The notes beneath the pieces were generated by a model, which was given only the letters and a program-made list of their open reading frames with translations, was not told where the DNA came from and searched no databases. This document shows positions 26,295-42,920 of a DNA stretch of 49,883 bases, piece by piece. Position numbers and translations under genes: made by a program. The stretch is taken from positions 1 through 49,883 of the IMG/VR virus record IMGVR_UViG_3300030419_001475; one strand, given 5' to 3'. Source of the stretch: a virus. Each line of letters starts with the position of its first letter. The first letter of the stretch is position 1.

Positions 26295-29200
26295 ATGCCT
26301 CAACAACAATTATATCGTTATGACATAGAATATAATGGATATCGATTCTCAGTCGATGCCTATAATCAACCTTCACAAGAAGAAGTACACGGTCTGTGGG
26401 TAGATGCTGTTGCTAATAAAATAGATACAACTCAAGGATTACCTGGTATTGATGTTGGATTTGCAGAAACTGATTATGATAGAGCTGAAAGAAATTCTAA
26501 TGAGATAGGTAGTATGGAGCCAGATAGAGCATATAGAGATGCTACATTTTGGCAGAGATTTTGGGATAGTGCTAAATTATCAGCAGTTCCTCACTTTGGA
26601 ACAATGGAGTCCCAATATACCCCCGCTGATGAATCTTCTGAATTATGGGCTGAGGCTCTTGGGGGATTAGGTGGAGCTGTAGCTGGTATGTTACCATTCT
26701 CTTTCTTAACTGGTGGAGTTGGAGTTGCTGCTGGTGGAGCTAATGTTGTAAGAAAATATAATCAATTTTCAAAATTAATTAAACTTGCTAAAGCAGCTAA
26801 GAAGCGTGGAAGAACTGATTTAGCTGATAAAATCATGGATAGGGCGGGCCATTTTGCAAGAAAAAATGATGAGATATTTGCAAGTGCTATAGTGTCTAAA
26901 CAACTTCCTCAAGTAAGTGGTATACTGGGTAAAACAGCTCCATACCGTGAAAGAATATTAAAACTCGCTGAAAAGAATCCAAAACACGCAAGAGCCTTAA
27001 ATCTTTTTGCCAACAACGTTGGTACATTTGCCTTGTACGGACAAACCAAACTTCCATATGATAAATTAGAAGGTAGACTTGAGCAATTAGGAATGGATAC
27101 AGCTTCGAGTGTTGTATTCTCTGTAGCTGGTCTTCCAACTATGTTAGGATATGCGTCTAAGGGTGTTAAATATGGAGTAGAGCCTTTCTCTCTACTTGGA
27201 GCTGGTATGTATTCAGACCTTGGTCAAACTGATATGTCTTTTGAAGAAAGACTAATTCATGGAGCCGCTTTAGTAGGATTCCATTACGGGAGACAACAGC
27301 TTGGAAGATTACATTTAAAAGAAAAGATTGGAACTGCTCTTAGACTTGCTAACCCAAAACTTTCAGAAGCTAGGCTTAATTCTGTTATGGATACTAAAGG
27401 TATGGATAATATCATCACTGCTTCATTAAAAGAAGCTTTGAAATATCCTACTTATTCAGATAGAAGAAATCCAGATAGAAAGGTTCAGCTGATACGAGTT
27501 GAAGCTCCTGTTGAAGGAAAAACAGAAAAACATAGAGGTTTGGTTCAAGAATTAGATACTGGTGAGGTATTTGCTGTGACAGGGGATTCTAGACCAGATG
27601 TTATGAGAAATATAAATAAGAAGTTTAGTAAAAATATATCTCCACTAAGAGAACGTATTACTGGGAAAAATCTGACTCCAGAAGAAAAAGTTGAATTAAC
27701 TAGATTAAAAGCTCAAGAAAATATTATGAGAGACGCTATGGTCTCTTCAAGAGATAAAGAGGTTTACGAACTTCCTCAATCTTCTGTAACCGAAACTATC
27801 AAAACTCCATTTGAAAGAACTACTGGACTTGCAGATGTTAATCATTGGAGTGGAAGAGTTTCTAGGTTGCAAAATGATATTGTAAATTTAAAAGAAACCT
27901 ACAAACAGCAACTCTCAGAAGGTAAAATTAATCCAAATTATTTAAAAAATAAATATAATAAAGATATAACATCAGCTGAAGGAAGATTGCGTGATGCTGA
28001 ATTAAAGTTAGAGCAGGCTCGTCAAGAGGTTTCAGTTGATAAGGGCGATTTTGTAGTTCAACCTGCTGGAAATTTTGAAGTTGGAGAGATTGTAAAAATA
28101 CCTAAATATGATTCTACTCTTGGTAAATTAGACTATACTAAAGCTGGTGTAGGTAAATATATTGGACAATTAGGCCAATTTAGAAATAAAAAAGACATTA
28201 TTATGCCAGAATGGATGAAAAGAGAACCTAAAAAATATGGTAACTATTTTAGAGATATACCTGTATTTGAAATTAAGACTCACGGAGGCTCAAGAACTGC
28301 TAGGGTTGCTATAGGTGGAAAGATACCTAAAAAAGTATACGAAGCGATTGTAAAAGCTAATGAGGCTGATAGACCATTACTTGAATATGCTGAAAATAAT
28401 CCTAGATTTAAAGAGTTATCAGAAAATCCTATTATTAGAACAGAGTATATAGGAAGAGAACCAGTAAGTCGGTATAATCCAAAGAATCCAATATTTAAAG
28501 AATTATTCACAGATACCCCAAGGGGAGGAGCTAAGGAATTAAAAAGTGTAATTGTAGAAGAAACATCTACAAGAGGCCCAAGTTCATCTGAACTATCTCA
28601 ATCTGTAAAAGAAACAGGATTTAAGGATACAAGAAAATATACATATATTAAAGGTAAGGGTAAATTTGCAATCCAATCAAAGGATGTAATGGGTAATACA
28701 GCTGCGGAGAATTTTAGAAATACAGCTAGAGACGTTTCTTTTTATCAAAGAAGTTGGGAAGAAAATGTAGCTAGTTTTTATGGAGCTAAAACAAAAGACC
28801 CTTGGATGACTGCTAATTTTAAAAGAATACATGAAGATGCTGTTAAATCTGGATATAAAGGCTCAGTTAAAGAATTGTGGGATGGATTTAAGAGTGGAGG
28901 TAGGTATAATCGAATTGTTTTTGATAAAATTCCTGTTACAAAAGAAAAAGAATATTTTTTCTATGCTCCATCTAGATTAAAAAAGATAGAATTACCTGCA
29001 AGATATTCAGAAACAGAAGGAAAGATGGTTAAGTCAGGTGAAAAAGCTTTTCCTGAAGGAGAAGCTACTCCTGAATTAATTCAAAGATATCAGCGTGAAA
29101 AGATGGAGTCAATAGCAGAATCTTTGCAGGTTAAAAGAGAAAAAGAAAGACAAGAATTTAGTCAATTTCAAGGAGCTAGAGTTGAGAATTGGCCTGATAT

Positions 29201-32200
29201 GAATAAAATGGATAGAAAAGCTCTTATTGATAAAGAGATATATGATTCATATCCTGAACTTAACCCTCAAAATGACGCTCCTTGGGCGGTTAATTTTAAG
29301 TGGGATTCTAGAAAAGGAAGTAAGATAACAACCATAACTCGAAGAGGAATGAAAGATGGTAAAGTTGCTACGTTTAAAACAAGAGAAGAAGCTGAAAGAT
29401 TTGCAAATGATTATTGGATAAATTCCGAATCTGTTGAAAGTATTATTACAAATTTATCTCGTAAAATATCTAATCTAGAAGGCCCAGAAAAAAGATTATT
29501 TGAACAACAAAGAGGTGCATTAAAGAAAGCACAGAGAGAACAGGGTATACCTGATGAAGAATATAAATATTTATTAAGTGAATGGTTTCCTGAAAGTCGT
29601 GGCTCGTCAAAAAATATGACCTTTGAAGAAGCTCAAGTTGCAACTGCTTTATTGAGTAACGAAGGTAATACGAAAGTATATCAAGATAAAATGTCATCTA
29701 TGGTGCCCCCAGTAAGTATGGCGAGTAACACAAAATCTAAGTGGCAAAGGTTTAAGATGGGAGCTGCTAAAGCTGCTCTACCTGTGTATACAACTTTACA
29801 AATGGCAAGGTCACGTATTGCTAGTATGTGGGGAAGAAATATGATAAACCATGAATTAACACGTCAGTTAATTACTGGTGATTTTTCCCAATTTAAGATA
29901 AGTCTAAAGGAAGGATTTAATCTTACTACAAAACAATTTGATAATATTTCTACTATTATAGATAAAAAGTATAGTGATTGGTATAATCCTAAACTAATGG
30001 ATAAGCTTCCTACTGAGGAAATTATTAAGACATACACAGCTTTTCGAAATAAAGTTCTTGCAGAATATCTTATACCGAGTGGTGTTGAAGTTCGTAATGC
30101 GGCTACAAGAAATGCTAAATATGAGCCATTGTTTGAAGCGTATGATAGAAATGGAAAACGTATAGAACTTGCAAATGCATATGATGCAATTAGATTGGTT
30201 GAGGGAATAGAGTTTTTAGATAGTAATGGAAATTTAACTCGTCCTAAAAACGCTGAAACAGCAAAGATGGTAGATGGTAAAGTTGTTAATGTAGAAACTG
30301 ATGCATTTCCTTTTGAATATGTTAAAAGTTTAAGGAAGTTAGATAAAGATACTGGAAAATTTGACGGAGGATGGTACATAGAAGGTAATAATAGATATGT
30401 ATTTGAATGGAAAGATAGAAATACTGTTAAAACAATTATGTTGGGCAAGGGTACAGTAGAGAATAAAAACTTTAAATCAGCGTCCGATAAGTATGTTAAG
30501 GTTCACAATAAAGATGGAGAGTCTGGTAAATTTAATCACCATATAGAGAAAAATTTTCTTTCTCGTATTATTACAGATGAGTTTAGAGAGATGATGGCTT
30601 TTAATAAGCAGTTCAGAGAAGGAATGGCTTGGGTTGTTGCTTCAACAGACCCTCAGTTTAAGAATTTGAAAGCAACTCCATTGGAGAAATTAGAAGCTGC
30701 GAAAAGATATTTAAATAATGTTGATAAGTTTTGGAGAGACCAGGCTGGTGTTTTTGGAACTCAGTATACTAGGATTGCCAATCTTCCTCCTATTATTGCT
30801 TTAGAAGCAAATACAAATAAAATTATAAGCTTAAAAGGATTTAAAGATATCAATGGTAATCCTGTATCAAAGAAATCTACTGTTATAGACGCTAAGGGAG
30901 AGCGTAAATCTGTTGGTAAAGTGATTAATGTATATGAAAGAAGTTTTGATAAGATTATTTCAAGATATGGTCAAAAGGTTGCTCATATTGCTCCAACATT
31001 TCAGTTCTTTGGTAAGGGAGGAGCTGAGAGCGAAAAGATTTTAAAAGAAAGGGACAGGTTAGCTCTTGAAACTGATGAGTCATTTGCTGGATGGGCTCAT
31101 GAGTCATTGGCCTTACAACTTAATGCTGTCCAAAAGAATAAATGGTATGATAGCGCTATAAGAAACTTAACTATGACCACCGCCCAAATAGGATTATCTT
31201 CTCCATTTTCAGGATATAAGAACTTCCTATTAGGACAACAAAGTAATGCTACAGTATTTGGATTTAGACTCGCTGCTAATGGAATGTATAATGCCTTAGC
31301 TGATAGAAAAGCGATGTCTACTTTAACAGGTAGAATCGGTGGTAAAGAAGCAGGTGTCCATGAACTTATGACTGGTCGTATTGTTTATTCTAAATACAAT
31401 CCAGGTATGATGAGAATTACAGAGGTTATGAACCGTATTATTAGTACATCAATAGGAGAACCTGCATTAAGAACTCATATTGACAATCTTAATGGAATCA
31501 AAAATATTATGAATCGTGGTGTATCAGAAAATACATCTATGCGTACTTTAACAGATGTGTTTAAGTTTACTGACGCTGAGATAGCTTCTATGAAAAAACT
31601 AGGTAGTCACAGATTAGCTGAAAGACCTGATTATATTCAAAGAGCTCAACAAATGGCTCATTTAATAACTCAAGGTGGCCCAAGTTTACCATTTGTTCCT
31701 CAATGGATGGGTAAGAATTGGTCAAAACCACTTACATTGTTTTATAGGGTTGCTTATAGAATGACAGAAAATGTAGCTAACTCTGTTATTAAACCATTGG
31801 TAGCCGATGGAAATCCTGTTCCTCTTGTTAGATATGCTAGTTTATTACCTATAAGTGGGGCTGCTATATTTCATGCTCACTACGCAGCGTTTAATGAAGA
31901 ACAAAGAAATCAATTCAAAGCAAGTGGTGATAAATATTTTGAGTTAGCTTTAAAAGCTGAAGGACTTGCGTCTTTTAGTAATGCTTTTGATGACTATGGT
32001 AACGTAGTTGAATCATATAAACCAGCTGTTTACAGAACGGTTGAGTCGTTGGTTAAAAATTTATTCGCAACTCTTACTGGAAAGAAATTTATAGACCAAT
32101 CATTAAAAGATTTAGCTTCTGAGAATGTTGTATTATTTAATAGGTTGATAAAGCTATGGGAAAAATCAAATAGACCATTGAAAAAATCGTTGAATGATTC

Positions 32201-32681
32201 AAGACGTAGACAAAGACAGTTTACTGATGTATACTTTAGAGATAAGCCTTTTCTTGGAGGTGAGTTATCTACCTTAACAACTAAGAGCCCATATTACAGA
32301 GCGGTTAAAGAGGTATTTTGGTCAGATAATGAAGAAGAAAAAGCTCGTGTGTATTACGCTGCTAGAAATTATATTGCTCAGCATGAGATTAATAAAGACC
32401 CATCTTTAAAGAAAATTCCACATAAGGCAAAGAAACTTGCAAGAACAAATTTAAAGACTGTTGTTTCAGCTCAAAGACCTATACCAAGTTCATGGAGAAA
32501 AAGAACAACAGGAGCTAAAACAAGATATGAAATATATATGTCTAAACTTGACCCTAAATCAAGAAAAGATGAGATGTATATTGAAAATGAATATACCAAA
32601 CAACTAAGAGCTTGGAATGCTGCAATTAGCAAGTATGGCTCAAAATACGACTTAGACCCATTTCCTGGGCCATCAAGATAG
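26295..32681 (+). CDS. Giant internal virion (ejection-type) protein, 2128 aa
   Basis: By far the largest gene. The N-terminus (YRYDIEYNGYRFSVDAYN, DFWQRFWDSAKL-like region near residue 85) is followed by Gly/Ala-rich hydrophobic stretches (about residues 120-150, GGLGGAVAGMLPFSFLTGG) and another near residue 1850 (LLPISGAAIFHAHYAAF). Between them lie long charged helical regions. Size, position near the end of the virion operon and mixed hydrophobic/helical design match ejected inner-core proteins of podoviruses or 'large polyvalent protein'-type polypeptides. I see no clear lysozyme or polymerase active site. Confidence 0.6.
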   Translation: MPQQQLYRYDIEYNGYRFSVDAYNQPSQEEVHGLWVDAVANKIDTTQGLPGIDVGFAETDYDRAERNSNEIGSMEPDRAYRDATFWQRFWDSAKLSAVPHFGTMESQYTPADESSELWAEALGGLGGAVAGMLPFSFLTGGVGVAAGGANVVRKYNQFSKLIKLAKAAKKRGRTDLADKIMDRAGHFARKNDEIFASAIVSKQLPQVSGILGKTAPYRERILKLAEKNPKHARALNLFANNVGTFALYGQTKLPYDKLEGRLEQLGMDTASSVVFSVAGLPTMLGYASKGVKYGVEPFSLLGAGMYSDLGQTDMSFEERLIHGAALVGFHYGRQQLGRLHLKEKIGTALRLANPKLSEARLNSVMDTKGMDNIITASLKEALKYPTYSDRRNPDRKVQLIRVEAPVEGKTEKHRGLVQELDTGEVFAVTGDSRPDVMRNINKKFSKNISPLRERITGKNLTPEEKVELTRLKAQENIMRDAMVSSRDKEVYELPQSSVTETIKTPFERTTGLADVNHWSGRVSRLQNDIVNLKETYKQQLSEGKINPNYLKNKYNKDITSAEGRLRDAELKLEQARQEVSVDKGDFVVQPAGNFEVGEIVKIPKYDSTLGKLDYTKAGVGKYIGQLGQFRNKKDIIMPEWMKREPKKYGNYFRDIPVFEIKTHGGSRTARVAIGGKIPKKVYEAIVKANEADRPLLEYAENNPRFKELSENPIIRTEYIGREPVSRYNPKNPIFKELFTDTPRGGAKELKSVIVEETSTRGPSSSELSQSVKETGFKDTRKYTYIKGKGKFAIQSKDVMGNTAAENFRNTARDVSFYQRSWEENVASFYGAKTKDPWMTANFKRIHEDAVKSGYKGSVKELWDGFKSGGRYNRIVFDKIPVTKEKEYFFYAPSRLKKIELPARYSETEGKMVKSGEKAFPEGEATPELIQRYQREKMESIAESLQVKREKERQEFSQFQGARVENWPDMNKMDRKALIDKEIYDSYPELNPQNDAPWAVNFKWDSRKGSKITTITRRGMKDGKVATFKTREEAERFANDYWINSESVESIITNLSRKISNLEGPEKRLFEQQRGALKKAQREQGIPDEEYKYLLSEWFPESRGSSKNMTFEEAQVATALLSNEGNTKVYQDKMSSMVPPVSMASNTKSKWQRFKMGAAKAALPVYTTLQMARSRIASMWGRNMINHELTRQLITGDFSQFKISLKEGFNLTTKQFDNISTIIDKKYSDWYNPKLMDKLPTEEIIKTYTAFRNKVLAEYLIPSGVEVRNAATRNAKYEPLFEAYDRNGKRIELANAYDAIRLVEGIEFLDSNGNLTRPKNAETAKMVDGKVVNVETDAFPFEYVKSLRKLDKDTGKFDGGWYIEGNNRYVFEWKDRNTVKTIMLGKGTVENKNFKSASDKYVKVHNKDGESGKFNHHIEKNFLSRIITDEFREMMAFNKQFREGMAWVVASTDPQFKNLKATPLEKLEAAKRYLNNVDKFWRDQAGVFGTQYTRIANLPPIIALEANTNKIISLKGFKDINGNPVSKKSTVIDAKGERKSVGKVINVYERSFDKIISRYGQKVAHIAPTFQFFGKGGAESEKILKERDRLALETDESFAGWAHESLALQLNAVQKNKWYDSAIRNLTMTTAQIGLSSPFSGYKNFLLGQQSNATVFGFRLAANGMYNALADRKAMSTLTGRIGGKEAGVHELMTGRIVYSKYNPGMMRITEVMNRIISTSIGEPALRTHIDNLNGIKNIMNRGVSENTSMRTLTDVFKFTDAEIASMKKLGSHRLAERPDYIQRAQQMAHLITQGGPSLPFVPQWMGKNWSKPLTLFYRVAYRMTENVANSVIKPLVADGNPVPLVRYASLLPISGAAIFHAHYAAFNEEQRNQFKASGDKYFELALKAEGLASFSNAFDDYGNVVESYKPAVYRTVESLVKNLFATLTGKKFIDQSLKDLASENVVLFNRLIKLWEKSNRPLKKSLNDSRRRQRQFTDVYFRDKPFLGGELSTLTTKSPYYRAVKEVFWSDNEEEKARVYYAARNYIAQHEINKDPSLKKIPHKAKKLARTNLKTVVSAQRPIPSSWRKRTTGAKTRYEIYMSKLDPKSRKDEMYIENEYTKQLRAWNAAISKYGSKYDLDPFPGPSR

Positions 32682-39920: not shown

Positions 39921-40090
39921 AATACTCCACTATGTTTCTTTTTTATTTTGTATCCATATTTTAACGCTTCTCTAATTGTACTACTTATATTGTGAATACC
40001 TAACATATACACATCCAAGTCATTAGCTGATTCGTGTATAAGTAAGTATTGTACAACCCTATGAGTCTCCTTGTCCATCGACAGAACCAT
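39878..40090 (-). CDS. Small winged-helix/HTH domain protein, 70 aa
   Basis: Pattern STIREALKYGYKIKKKHSG...RTTYYM fits the small helix-turn-helix domain common upstream of phage helicase genes, with a recognition helix near residues 35-45. The start is uncertain: ATG at 40090 (used here) or 40078 (MDKETHRVV). It overlaps the helicase start by 43 bases and the upstream gene's end by 32. Possible replication-origin binder or helicase partner. Confidence 0.5.
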   Translation of the reverse strand: MVLSMDKETHRVVQYLLIHESANDLDVYMLGIHNISSTIREALKYGYKIKKKHSGVLWNRRTTYYMETIK

Positions 40091-40601
40091 TTCTTAATCG
40101 TACAAGTGTTGCTGTAGCGCTAATATTTCTATTTCCATTCATACCAGTCCATTCTTCATGAGCAACGCTAATTACAACTGATTTATTCAATATAAGGTCT
40201 GTTGTGATTGCGGGGAGCTTAAGTACTACTCTTGACTCCGCATCAGAGTTCCCATCTAATTCAAGTTTTTGTAATGGTATGTGCAATTTATCAAGAAAAC
40301 GTTTATATCCCGCATTACTACCCCCAGTAATTCTTCTTCCATCCTCATCTTTAGTTCCATAGAAACGCCATACACCAGCATCTTGAACATCCCTACCTTC
40401 ATATTTACCCGCATCTAATTTGTACTTTGGTTTGTATAACATTCCTCTTCCACCACGCTTAGTTGTAATCTTTTTACTGTATAAGCTAATTATTGTAGCT
40501 GGATAGGAGCCCTCTGGTATGATTGTGGACATTTCAGGGTCATAGTAAACATCTTCATCATCAAAGTCATCAAGAAGCTTATCTATATCACTCATATCCA
40601 C
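40059..40601 (-). CDS. DUF669-like single-strand-DNA-binding-type protein
   Basis: An acidic N-terminus (IDKLLDDFDDEDVYYDPE) followed by IPEGSYPATIISLYSKKIT and a beta-rich body with an inserted helix (SNAGYKRFLDKLHIP), ending VVISVAHEEWTG. This is the layout of phage DUF669/ssb-like proteins that accompany annealing recombinases. It overlaps the annealing protein's end by 10 bases, so they are likely partners. Confidence 0.6.
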   Translation of the reverse strand: MDMSDIDKLLDDFDDEDVYYDPEMSTIIPEGSYPATIISLYSKKITTKRGGRGMLYKPKYKLDAGKYEGRDVQDAGVWRFYGTKDEDGRRITGGSNAGYKRFLDKLHIPLQKLELDGNSDAESRVVLKLPAITTDLILNKSVVISVAHEEWTGMNGNRNISATATLVRLRNGSVDGQGDS

Positions 40602-41095
40602 TCATCCTTATTATCTGCATCTACTCCTGTATCTCCACCAAACTTTTGACCATTAGCATCAACATATTTATTACCATCAAACCTACCCATAAATACATCA
40701 GCGTTGAATCCAAGTCTTGATAGTCCTTTTGTAATTGCGTCTGTCTGTACCTTTTTGATACAATCGTCATCAAGTTTACTACCCATCATTACTCTGATAG
40801 AACTGCTAATAGGGAATTCTCCCTCTACATCACCAGCCTCATCTTCATATTTATAATAAAATGTTGCAGTATACACAATAAGTGTATCATTTAGTATTGG
40901 AGTGTACTGTTCGTCTTTAACTCCAAATCCATGACCAAAAGCACCAAACACTTCTGTTGCATTTTTAATTTGATACTGAGCTCCAATAGCGGTAAATCCA
41001 CCACGCTGGTTTACTTTGGTTGTAAACTCAGGGTCAGTAGTTTCAACCTGCTCCCATAAGAACAAGTTGTTGTTTTTATTCTTTTTTTCTGCCAT
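40592..41095 (-). CDS. Sak/ERF-like single-strand annealing protein
   Basis: LWEQVETTDPEFTTKVNQRGGFTAIGAQYQIK and especially VQTDAITKGLSRLGFNADVFMGRFDGNKY near the C-terminus are typical of the phage Rad52/ERF/Sak superfamily. Such proteins anneal complementary strands for recombination-dependent repair and genome circularisation. 167 aa, complete. It clusters with the DUF669-like protein, the RecB/Cas4-like nuclease and resolvase-like genes to form a recombination module. Confidence 0.75.
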   Translation of the reverse strand: MAEKKNKNNNLFLWEQVETTDPEFTTKVNQRGGFTAIGAQYQIKNATEVFGAFGHGFGVKDEQYTPILNDTLIVYTATFYYKYEDEAGDVEGEFPISSSIRVMMGSKLDDDCIKKVQTDAITKGLSRLGFNADVFMGRFDGNKYVDANGQKFGGDTGVDADNKDEWI

Positions 41096-41345: not shown

Positions 41346-41483
41346 CTAAATTCCTAAAACTTCGTTCTCAGCTATTAATATAATCTCCTCACGTTCCTTT
41401 TCTTCTAATTCCATCAGAGGTTTGTCATGGTGTACTAAAGCTAATTCCTCGGCTACATCAGTAATTGCATCTGCTATTTCCAT
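41346..41483 (-). CDS. Acidic small protein, 45 aa
   Basis: MEIADAITDVAEELALVHHD... is acidic and helical and is preceded by AAAGGAG 7 bases upstream. It is the first gene after the structured RNA candidate at 41514-41605, so it (and genes after it) would be the target of any control by that RNA. Unrecognised. Confidence 0.55.
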   Translation of the reverse strand: MEIADAITDVAEELALVHHDKPLMELEEKEREEIILIAENEVLGI

Positions 41484-41513
41484 ATCTTACTCCTTTGTTT
41501 TTTAATGAAAGGA

Positions 41514-41605
41514 TGGGCTTGGCACACAGGGAAAAACATAAACCTGCGGTGGCGTTTATACTCGCTGTTTAGGGTAATAATAAAAACCTAAATCAACCAA
41601 GCCCA
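41514..41605 (-). ncRNA. Candidate multi-stem structured RNA
   Basis: A 9-bp closing stem TGGGCTTGG (41514-41522) / CCAAGCCCA (41597-41605) encloses three smaller stems on the top-strand coordinates: CAGG/CCTG (41527-41530 with 41543-41546), GGCG/CGCT (41551-41554 with 41563-41566, one G-U) and TTTAGG/CCTAAA (41568-41573 with 41587-41592). This is a four-helix junction. It fills a 141-base gap between genes and lies 5' of a ribosome-binding site. It lacks the T-arm of a tRNA and I do not recognise a known riboswitch class. Confidence 0.5.
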
Positions 41606-41624
41606 CTATGAGCTCACCATTATG

Positions 41625-41840
41625 TCAAAACTTCTTTGTTTTTTCAATAGTGCTCTTTTCATTTTTATCTAATTTATTGCTTCGAAGAATATATCCATGA
41701 TAATACCACCATCCATTGCCATTCTTTTTAAAAAGCTCTGCTCTGTCTTTTTTCCACTTTTTATTTTGTGGAGCATCTGTACTATACTGCCATCCGCTCC
41801 TATAATATTTCCAATCTAAACTATTGCTTCTGCTGGCCAA
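41625..41840 (-). CDS. Hypothetical aromatic-rich basic protein, 71 aa
   Basis: MASRSNSLDWKYYRSGWQYST... rich in Trp, Tyr, Lys and Asn, with KNGNGWWYYHGYILRSNKLD. Overlaps the nuclease gene's end by 20 bases. Followed by the structured RNA candidate. Unrecognised. Confidence 0.5.
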   Translation of the reverse strand: MASRSNSLDWKYYRSGWQYSTDAPQNKKWKKDRAELFKKNGNGWWYYHGYILRSNKLDKNEKSTIEKTKKF

Positions 41841-42579
41841 TTAAACCTCCTCCACAAGCTTCGAAGTATGAACAATATTTATCATTACACTCCCATTTTA
41901 GAACAGGAGCAAAACCAAGTTCAATCGGAGGAGCTCCTTCTTTTACAGATTCATTTACTCTTTGCCAATACTCAACAGCCTCATCTATCATAGACATTGG
42001 AATTTCTAATTCTCGCATCTGAGAATCATTCTTGTTATAAAACAATAATGCCATTGATTTTATTTTTGGATAATCATTTAAGTAATGTTGAGCAGGATTA
42101 TTTATGTTATACCAATGAGCGTAGGTTGCTGTTTGCATCATATAATTTTTTACTGAATTTGGGTCATAATATGTTTTACCGAATATTGTTCGCCATTTCC
42201 AATAATTACAAGATTTTATATCGTAAAGCACACCATCATCTATCATAACTAAGTCAATAAATCCTCTGACATTTAAGTCATGTATATATAATTCTTTTTC
42301 TATAAAAATACGCGCTCCATTGTTTGATGCATACCATTGAATCGCGTCTTGTATGTCTGCGTGTATCACATCTCCAAGCCTAAACAATCGTAATGTATCA
42401 GCTTTTATTTCAGGAGTTTGTACCTTTTCTACAGACGAATAATAGTGTTTACGTGCACACATACCTGCTGATGAAGAATGAAACCATTCTTCTTTTCCAT
42501 CATATCTTTTGGATTTCTCAGCGTTTAGGTGAGCAACGTAATCATCATAGATTTGAGTGACTTTTGAGCTCTGTGCCAT
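41821..42579 (-). CDS. RecB/Cas4-like PD-(D/E)XK exonuclease with Cys cluster
   Basis: Catalytic core: H73 (VIHADIQ), D109 (GFIDLVMID), D120-I-K122 (YDIKS) and the QT-x-x-Y motif around 149. Cys41 near the N-terminus plus Cys231, Cys236 and Cys242 near the C-terminus have the spacing of a Cas4/AddB-type iron-sulfur cluster. It would degrade or resect DNA ends to feed the annealing protein downstream in the same operon. 252 aa, full length. Confidence 0.8.
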   Translation of the reverse strand: MAQSSKVTQIYDDYVAHLNAEKSKRYDGKEEWFHSSSAGMCARKHYYSSVEKVQTPEIKADTLRLFRLGDVIHADIQDAIQWYASNNGARIFIEKELYIHDLNVRGFIDLVMIDDGVLYDIKSCNYWKWRTIFGKTYYDPNSVKNYMMQTATYAHWYNINNPAQHYLNDYPKIKSMALLFYNKNDSQMRELEIPMSMIDEAVEYWQRVNESVKEGAPPIELGFAPVLKWECNDKYCSYFEACGGGLIGQQKQ

Positions 42580-42733: not shown

Positions 42734-42807
42734 TTTTGTCCTCAATTAGTTAAAGAAATTATTACAATTATTATTTTAAACAAATACTTTTTTTATGTTT
42801 TTTTGTA

Positions 42808-42821
42808 TTATTTAATACTTG
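42808..42821. promoter_or_regulatory. Shared operator-like motif TTATTTAATACTTG
   Basis: Exact reverse complement of the repeat unit at 671-684. It lies 75-88 bases upstream of the ribbon-helix-helix-like gene and touches the AT palindrome. Recurrence at two transcription-unit heads supports a protein-binding site; autoregulation by the neighbouring gene is a hypothesis. Confidence 0.4.
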
Positions 42822-42862
42822 TATATATAGTAATATATATATATAAGTATAATAGCTTAACT
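42815..42862 (-). promoter_or_regulatory. AT-dinucleotide palindrome/promoter-like tract (boundary element copy C)
   Basis: ATACTT (42815-42820) returns as AAGTAT (42845-42850) around alternating TA runs. Read leftward it runs AGCTATTATACTTATATATATATATTACTATATATA, whose end matches the tract read rightward at 1088-1131. TATTATACT provides a possible -10. It precedes the leftward genes that begin at 42733. Confidence 0.45.
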
Positions 42863-42874
42863 ATTACTTTAACA

Positions 42875-42904
42875 AAGCCTAGGCTAAAGCTATAGCCTAG
42901 GCTT
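42875..42904. terminator. Double AGCCTAGGCT terminator hairpin (boundary element copy C)
   Basis: Two copies of the palindrome AGCCTAGGCT (42876-42885 and 42894-42903) form an 11-bp stem with an 8-base loop. Read leftward, the stem is followed by TTTGTTAAAG, a modest U-tract. It lies 17 bases beyond the stop of the gene at 42921 and would end that transcription unit. Confidence 0.65.
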
Positions 42905-42920
42905 ATGTTTAAGTAGTTAG

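Follow-up and report, generated by a model that had tools for sequence, protein, structure and literature searches.

A three-way-junction RNA family from the intergenic regions of phages, absent from Rfam 15

We describe a family of structured RNAs in phages, folded on the coding strand around a three-way junction. We class it as a new family, of the generally familiar sort of structured phage RNAs found between genes, and assign it to no named family. Traced from one sequence, a 49,883-nucleotide stretch of viral DNA (hereafter the window; positions 1 to 49,883 of the IMG/VR viral metagenome record IMGVR_UViG_3300030419_001475), the family now comprises 21 viral records including the window, with 20 distinct sequences and one copy per record. 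It is a well-supported phage RNA family that is missing from Rfam 15, and its covariation is confirmed across phages with SSB-like proteins as little as 23% identical.

Fold, covariation and strand

The window copy lies in a 141-nt gap separating two leftward ORFs of 71 and 45 amino acids (Table 1). The 92 nt of the minus strand from 41605 to 41514 fold at −29.6 kcal/mol, compared with a mean of −19.2 (s.d. 2.9) for 200 dinucleotide-preserving shuffles, none of which folded equally well (0/200; z = −3.55). The closing stem P1, UGGGCUUGG/CCAAGCCCA, has nine Watson–Crick pairs and one U.G; P2 is UG-A-UUUAGG/CCUAAA-CA, with a conserved single-base bulge and a variable loop; P3 is GCG/CGC; and P4, of the type GCAGG/CCUGU, has six pairs. 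There is a single copy of the exact inverted repeat GGGCTTGG..CCAAGCCC in the window and none in any of 100 shuffles. The first-pass annotation, made from the window alone, had described a 9-bp perfect closing stem around three inner stems, 92 nt in all, between two leftward genes, and both fold and placement are as it described. Its term 'four-helix' suits the window copy, which has four stems, but the family conserves only P1, P2 and P3.

Table 1 Positions of the RNA element, its parts and neighbouring genes in the window, and of the second module in related records
Feature	Position	Strand	Basis or remark
Whole RNA element	41514..41605	−	Fold z −3.55; model R3 57 bits, E 1.3e-12 (whole record)
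P1 closing stem, 5′ arm UGGGCUUGGU	41596..41605	−	Fold; family covariation in 5/10 pairs
P1 closing stem, 3′ arm GCCAAGCCCA, with invariant U.G pair	41514..41523	−	P1 cells paired 99.5%
P2 hairpin UG-A-UUUAGG ... CCUAAACA	41566..41595	−	Both-sided changes in 5/8 pairs
P3 hairpin GCG-AGUAUAAA-CGC	41552..41565	−	Cells paired 100%
P4 hairpin, U-rich 12-nt loop; optional insertion, P3–P1 junction	41525..41548	−	Absent in most members
Upstream 71-aa ORF	41625..41840	−	Stop at 41625, 19 nt ahead of element
Downstream 45-aa ORF (MEIADAITDV...)	41346..41483	−	Start 41483; in L002 not adjacent to element
Shine–Dalgarno AAAGGAG of 45-aa ORF	41490..41496	−	Outside element, 17 nt past its end
Cas4-like PD-(D/E)XK exonuclease gene, recombination module	41821..42579	−	Pfam PF12705; PHROG 1990/1706
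Inferred Rad52-like single-strand annealing protein, same operon	40592..41095	−	tblastn
Inferred SSB-like protein (180 aa)	40059..40601	−	blastp 23–29% to L209/L217/L228/L232/L198 proteins
Second module, L162	1237–1365		
Second module, L176	553–690		
Second module, L160	1489–1575		
Second module, L180	1505–1590		
Second module, L183	395–505		
Second module, L210		−	Immediately past its element

The family was examined in an alignment of the 21 copies, 20 of them distinct. Standard pairs occupy 97.4% of pair cells (84.6% in shuffles), 17 of 27 pairs show changes on both sides, double-change cells number 70 against 21 in shuffles, and the covariation score of 0.363 (shuffles, 0.172) was reached by 0 of 500; these figures lean towards the structure because the alignment was fitted to it. 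Pairing is 34–45% once partners are shifted by 1–3 columns, and RNAalifold, to which the structure was not supplied, recovered P1, P2 and P3 from the same alignment. In P3, covariation is seen at two of the three pairs (GC/AU/GU; CG/UA). Mismatches, not counting the invariant U.G pair, comprise 27 G.U and 2 A.C, and it is therefore the coding strand, as RNA, that folds: G.U is tolerated on the transcribed strand and A.C is not, which separates a structured RNA from a DNA site.

From the 5′ end, the consensus reads P1 (at least 10 bp, with an invariant U.G end), UG, a one-base bulge, P2, CA, P3 (RYG AAUUAA CRY), C, then either 2–4 nt or the P4 hairpin, and P1′. P1 and P2 abut without unpaired bases, as do P2 and P3, and the only open joint lies between P3 and P1. 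The conserved core is therefore the three-way junction of P1, P2 and P3, the last a 3-bp hairpin with the loop AAUUAA. P4 is an optional insertion in the P3–P1 junction, with letters in only four to five of the aligned sequences (the window and a few others). The window is a divergent member, with a P4 insertion, an A bulge and a P3 loop of 8 bases, 2 more than the family consensus.

Homologues and class membership

With the neighbouring exonuclease gene as query, five relatives were obtained. The closest, L002, has an exonuclease that is 99% identical and carries the same 92 nt except for a single G to A substitution in P4 that converts a G.U pair into A-U. A covariance model built from the window and this near-twin only (R1) matched L003 (E = 1.5e-5), at a locus between a helix-turn-helix (HTH) gene and a small gene, and, over 80 further loci reached mostly via exonuclease alignment, L160 (E = 4.6e-5), L180 (E = 8e-5) and, more weakly, L179. 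L003, L160 and L180 were thus found without circularity. The closing stem in L160, L180 and L179 is GGACUCGG/CCGAGUCC, compared with GGGCUUGG/CCAAGCCC in the window. Model R2 gave the additional members L176, L162 and L173, and a pattern search of all of IMG/VR gave L198, L201, L204, L205, L209, L210, L211 and L217. A second pattern, in which only the strand around P3 was specified and P1 and P2 were left free save for GACA adjoining P3, added L228, L229, L230 and L232. In each of these, P1 is 10 bp long and new in sequence (for example, GGGCUCAG/CUGAGUCC and GGGGUCAG/CUGACUCC), with a chance frequency of 3–30 in 2,000 for random upstream DNA, and P1 of L230 contains a C-G to G-C flip.

Model R3 scored 46–73 bits in 20 members and 28 bits in L217, because the P4 insertion of the latter breaks the match; the top background score was 20.1 bits over 840 kb of unrelated viral DNA. 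In one class-wide sample of 274 bacterial genomes, searched without a positive control, R3 had no match. The first-pass annotation had proposed a covariance-model search of viral sequences, which has now yielded relatives (21 records in total), and had named an Rfam match, or an absence of covariation in the 9-bp stem among homologous intergenic regions, as what would speak against it. That covariation is strong, and an Rfam 15 search (4,227 models) of the window and its homologues gave, for the window also at permissive thresholds, only sub-threshold chance matches, in agreement with its description of the RNA as undescribed.

Several other candidates were set aside. The inverted-repeat pattern GGGCTTGG..GCCAAGCCCA retrieved 48 stretches from IMG/VR, all due to chance save the near-twin record, and two early core patterns likewise gave the near-twin as the sole real match, the others being within genes (L056) or without a closing stem. 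L227 was rejected as a core string inside a gene with no P1. At the corresponding gene slot, L059 and L004 show a P1-like stem without the core; at 15 bits they were not counted. BLAST searches of phages and plasmids with the element gave weak matches only, one of which, within an integron integrase gene of a Shewanella phage, raised the idea of an attC site; attC core boxes are absent. BLAST with a consensus-like 56-mer in named phages, and with the L162 and L176 regions, returned nothing real. L063 (BLAST E = 0.3), which has a 12-bp stem and a similar core string, was matched by neither R2 nor R3 and is not counted as a member. At its positions 945–1056, a stem-closed element lies between genes; it occurs in Enterococcus phage vB_Efs6_KEN16 and in 37 further phage records, is conserved among Enterococcus phages of the Kochikohdavirus type and contains the window-like short string CCCTAAACAGC..GTAAACGC.

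The element is not a tRNA, as the annotation had also stated: ARAGORN reported neither tRNA nor tmRNA in the window, and the T-loop motif is absent. The Rfam ribozyme models gave no match to the window at E values up to 10. A terminator scan gave no site at the 3′ end of the element (the single nearby match is on the 5′ side, at 41616–41598), and a run of seven T follows P1 in L209 only. With no conserved T-run and a loop that is far too large, the terminator reading is not supported. A literature search did not find the motif described, which is weak evidence as sequence motifs are unsearchable in text.

Gene context and adjacent modules

Across the phages, the element lies on the strand of its neighbouring genes, mostly 16–36 nt after a stop codon; where a start codon with a ribosome-binding site (RBS) was found nearby, it is 17–36 nt downstream of the element. 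The next gene varies between phages and is unrelated. In L002 the element is followed by a 75-aa HTH gene that the window lacks, and the element is therefore not tied to the 45-aa gene. Comparing the two records (window 41484–41497, L002 4067–4393), this excisionase- or HTH-like gene was either lost in the window or gained in L002, with a clean junction immediately after the element. The annotation had placed AAAGGAG about 20 bases past the element, and the site is indeed there, at 17 nt. Its proposal that the element regulates the specific small genes downstream in cis is not supported in that form, given that the next genes differ and that L002 has an extra HTH gene in between; in addition, the RBS is outside the structure and Shine–Dalgarno pairing is at shuffle level.

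In the window, L002, L003 and L198, the element is positioned between the exonuclease gene and the annealing-protein and SSB-like genes, and in L162, L176 and L210 it occurs in a different small-gene block, upstream of the exonuclease. The upstream gene in L230 encodes an SSB (PHROG 18154). In L209, L217, L228 and L232, the upstream protein is 23–26% identical to the 180-aa protein of the window and has an acidic SSB-type tip (..ELPF/DLPF). These SSB-like proteins form a family of 189–199 aa without a PHROG match, and tblastn of the L209 protein in named phages gave no match. The association with a recombination module (Cas4-like nuclease, annealing protein and SSB-like protein) suggested by the annotation holds for about half to two thirds of the copies. 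Many relatives with the same exonuclease lack the element, which indicates that it is frequently gained and lost.

The assignment of an annealing protein in the window comes from tblastn matches to a 'single strand-annealing protein' of Pelagibacter phage HTVC035P and to a RAD52-like protein of Pseudomonas phage PseuP_222, with the caveat that PHROG 7838 labels its family 'exonuclease'. For the SSB-like protein no PHROG match of its own was found; its relatives in element-bearing phages have the SSB-type tip ..ELPF. Genes of this leftward block mostly overlap, as the annotation had it, with the exception of another gap of about 175 nt at 42746–42920. The minus strand of this second gap folds with z = −4.78 and contains a 12-bp hairpin, AAGCCUAGGCUA..UAGCCUAGGCUU, within a longer stem. 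Elsewhere in the window, the structural gene region at 26295–32681 encodes a 2,128-aa protein without a PHROG match.

Other stem-closed RNA modules accompany the element in several phages. The second module, usually directly after the element, contains an inner hairpin of the CGGAG type (Table 1). Its stem covaries, being GAGCCUCU/AGAGGCUC in most records, GAGCUUCU/AGAAGCUC in L210 and GAGCCCCU/AGGGGCUC in L183, and the copies from L162, L176, L160 and L180 had no match in Rfam. In L160, a third module (1395–1487; AUGGGGCGGU/ACCGCCCCAU) is inserted between the element and the GAGCCUCU module. It is missing in L180, and the modules therefore appear to be gained and lost singly. In L201, L205 and L211, roughly 10–60 nt past the element, a start codon is enclosed by a closing stem some 15 bp long (UUGGGGGAGGACAA/UUGUCUUCCCCCAA).

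Possible roles and known systems

The constant feature of the family is its position between two genes on a transcript for replication or recombination. For this reason we tentatively favour, at somewhat less than even confidence, an intercistronic element that acts in cis on the operon mRNA, in processing or stability. The element would be transcribed within the polycistronic mRNA of the nuclease, annealing-protein and SSB operon; its rigid junction, which a protein or metal ions probably hold in place, would mark an intercistronic point of cutting or protection, with the conserved junction and P3 loop as recognition features. Cutting or protection there would then control both the stability and the relative yields of the surrounding early recombination genes, whichever gene comes next. 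The mode of action would resemble that of the T7 intercistronic processing hairpins. The location after a stop codon and before an RBS, and the indifference to the downstream gene, fit this role, as does the intercistronic position in an early operon ('early' being judged from gene content) that is typical of T7-type processing sites. Against it, P1 plus P2 falls below the length of a classical RNase III substrate, and strict sequence conservation, which T7-type RNase III sites do not need, points in the core of the element to a specific binder or a catalytic role. In L160, L162, L176, L179, L180 and L210, moreover, the element is found amid other stem-closed modules, a setting that resembles a small-RNA locus more closely than it does a processing site.

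A separate, stable small RNA that acts in trans or binds a protein and is released from the operon transcript in the manner of T4 RNAs C and D, is possible but rather unlikely. The absence of a fixed downstream gene, the single copy per genome and the tandem arrangement with other conserved stem-closed modules in L160, L162, L176 and L210 are consistent with such an RNA, but its flanking genes are tightly spaced, its conserved bases are in a closed junction and not in an open seed, and it has no convincing promoter or terminator of its own (a promoter scan gave one 10/12 promoter-like site just upstream, with sites rarer than in shuffles). We regard it as unlikely that the element represents a self-cleaving ribozyme of a new class, or a different kind of new RNA with a catalytic or protein-scaffold role, occurring once per genome in the recombination module of a group of uncultured phages and often joined with further undescribed stem-closed modules into a multi-domain phage noncoding RNA. 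Narrowed to small ribozymes that form a new class and cleave themselves within phage mRNA, the proposal is slightly more doubtful: the compact junction, strongly conserved core, variable outer loops, lack of a gene partner and phage setting would suit a ribozyme, but no described Rfam ribozyme class matches, few conserved bases are unpaired (the P2 bulge and the P3 loop) and the P3–P1 junction tolerates large insertions.

No likelier than a ribozyme is translational control of the next gene by a riboswitch or by a leader that binds a protein. The short distance from the element to an RBS-bearing start codon in most copies that have one nearby, and a possible 6-bp hairpin over the RBS directly past P1, would be expected of a leader, but that hairpin is found in the window only, and in all copies tested the P1 3′ arm pairs with the Shine–Dalgarno sequence at shuffle level (P = 0.25–0.92). 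There is neither conserved Shine–Dalgarno masking nor a conserved regulated gene downstream, and L002 has a different next gene. A single-stranded or cruciform DNA site, such as a replication or primosome site in a replication region, is very improbable; the single copy per genome and the proximity to DnaB, SSB and annealing-protein genes are countered by the excess of G.U over A.C mismatches, the consistent coding-strand placement and the varying position on the gene map. Finally, two readings are refuted for the whole family: a chance cluster of hairpins, and conservation imposed by a small protein whose frame overlaps the element (D-[NS]-E-[LIV]-T...). Covariation greatly exceeds that of the controls, and the open frame that crosses the element in L160, L179 and L180 is shifted in L198 (by 1 nt) and in the window (by a 2-nt loop insertion) and stopped in L209 (..ACG CCG TAG), with P2 loop lengths that vary by non-multiples of three.

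Structured-RNA families of such a kind have repeatedly proved to be ribozymes, riboswitches or phage takeover RNAs, and the short natural variants in L176 (51 nt), L198 (56 nt) and L204 (63 nt) make direct biochemical tests easy. The element resembles the candidates in PMC2864571 and later Rfam motifs, likewise intergenic, covarying motifs with no assigned function that came from comparative genomics, and differs from these in matching none of the 4,227 Rfam 15 models. With T4 RNAs C and D and the small RNA clusters of phages it shares small size, structure and possible tandem modules; unlike those RNAs, it is situated outside a tRNA cluster (the window has no tRNA) and closely spaced between protein genes. 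Hammerhead, twister-sister, pistol and hatchet ribozymes have a comparable small size, junction fold and conserved core with variable loops. A catalytic signature of the known multi-way-junction ribozymes is not recognized in the element, for which self-cleavage is only putative. The T7 RNase III signals are long imperfect hairpins with little sequence conservation, whereas the element is built as a three-way junction whose core is strongly conserved; by sequence it is not of the T7 type, and its cleavage is putative. What it has in common with the T7 intercistronic signals is its place between genes of an early phage operon and its indifference to the gene that follows.
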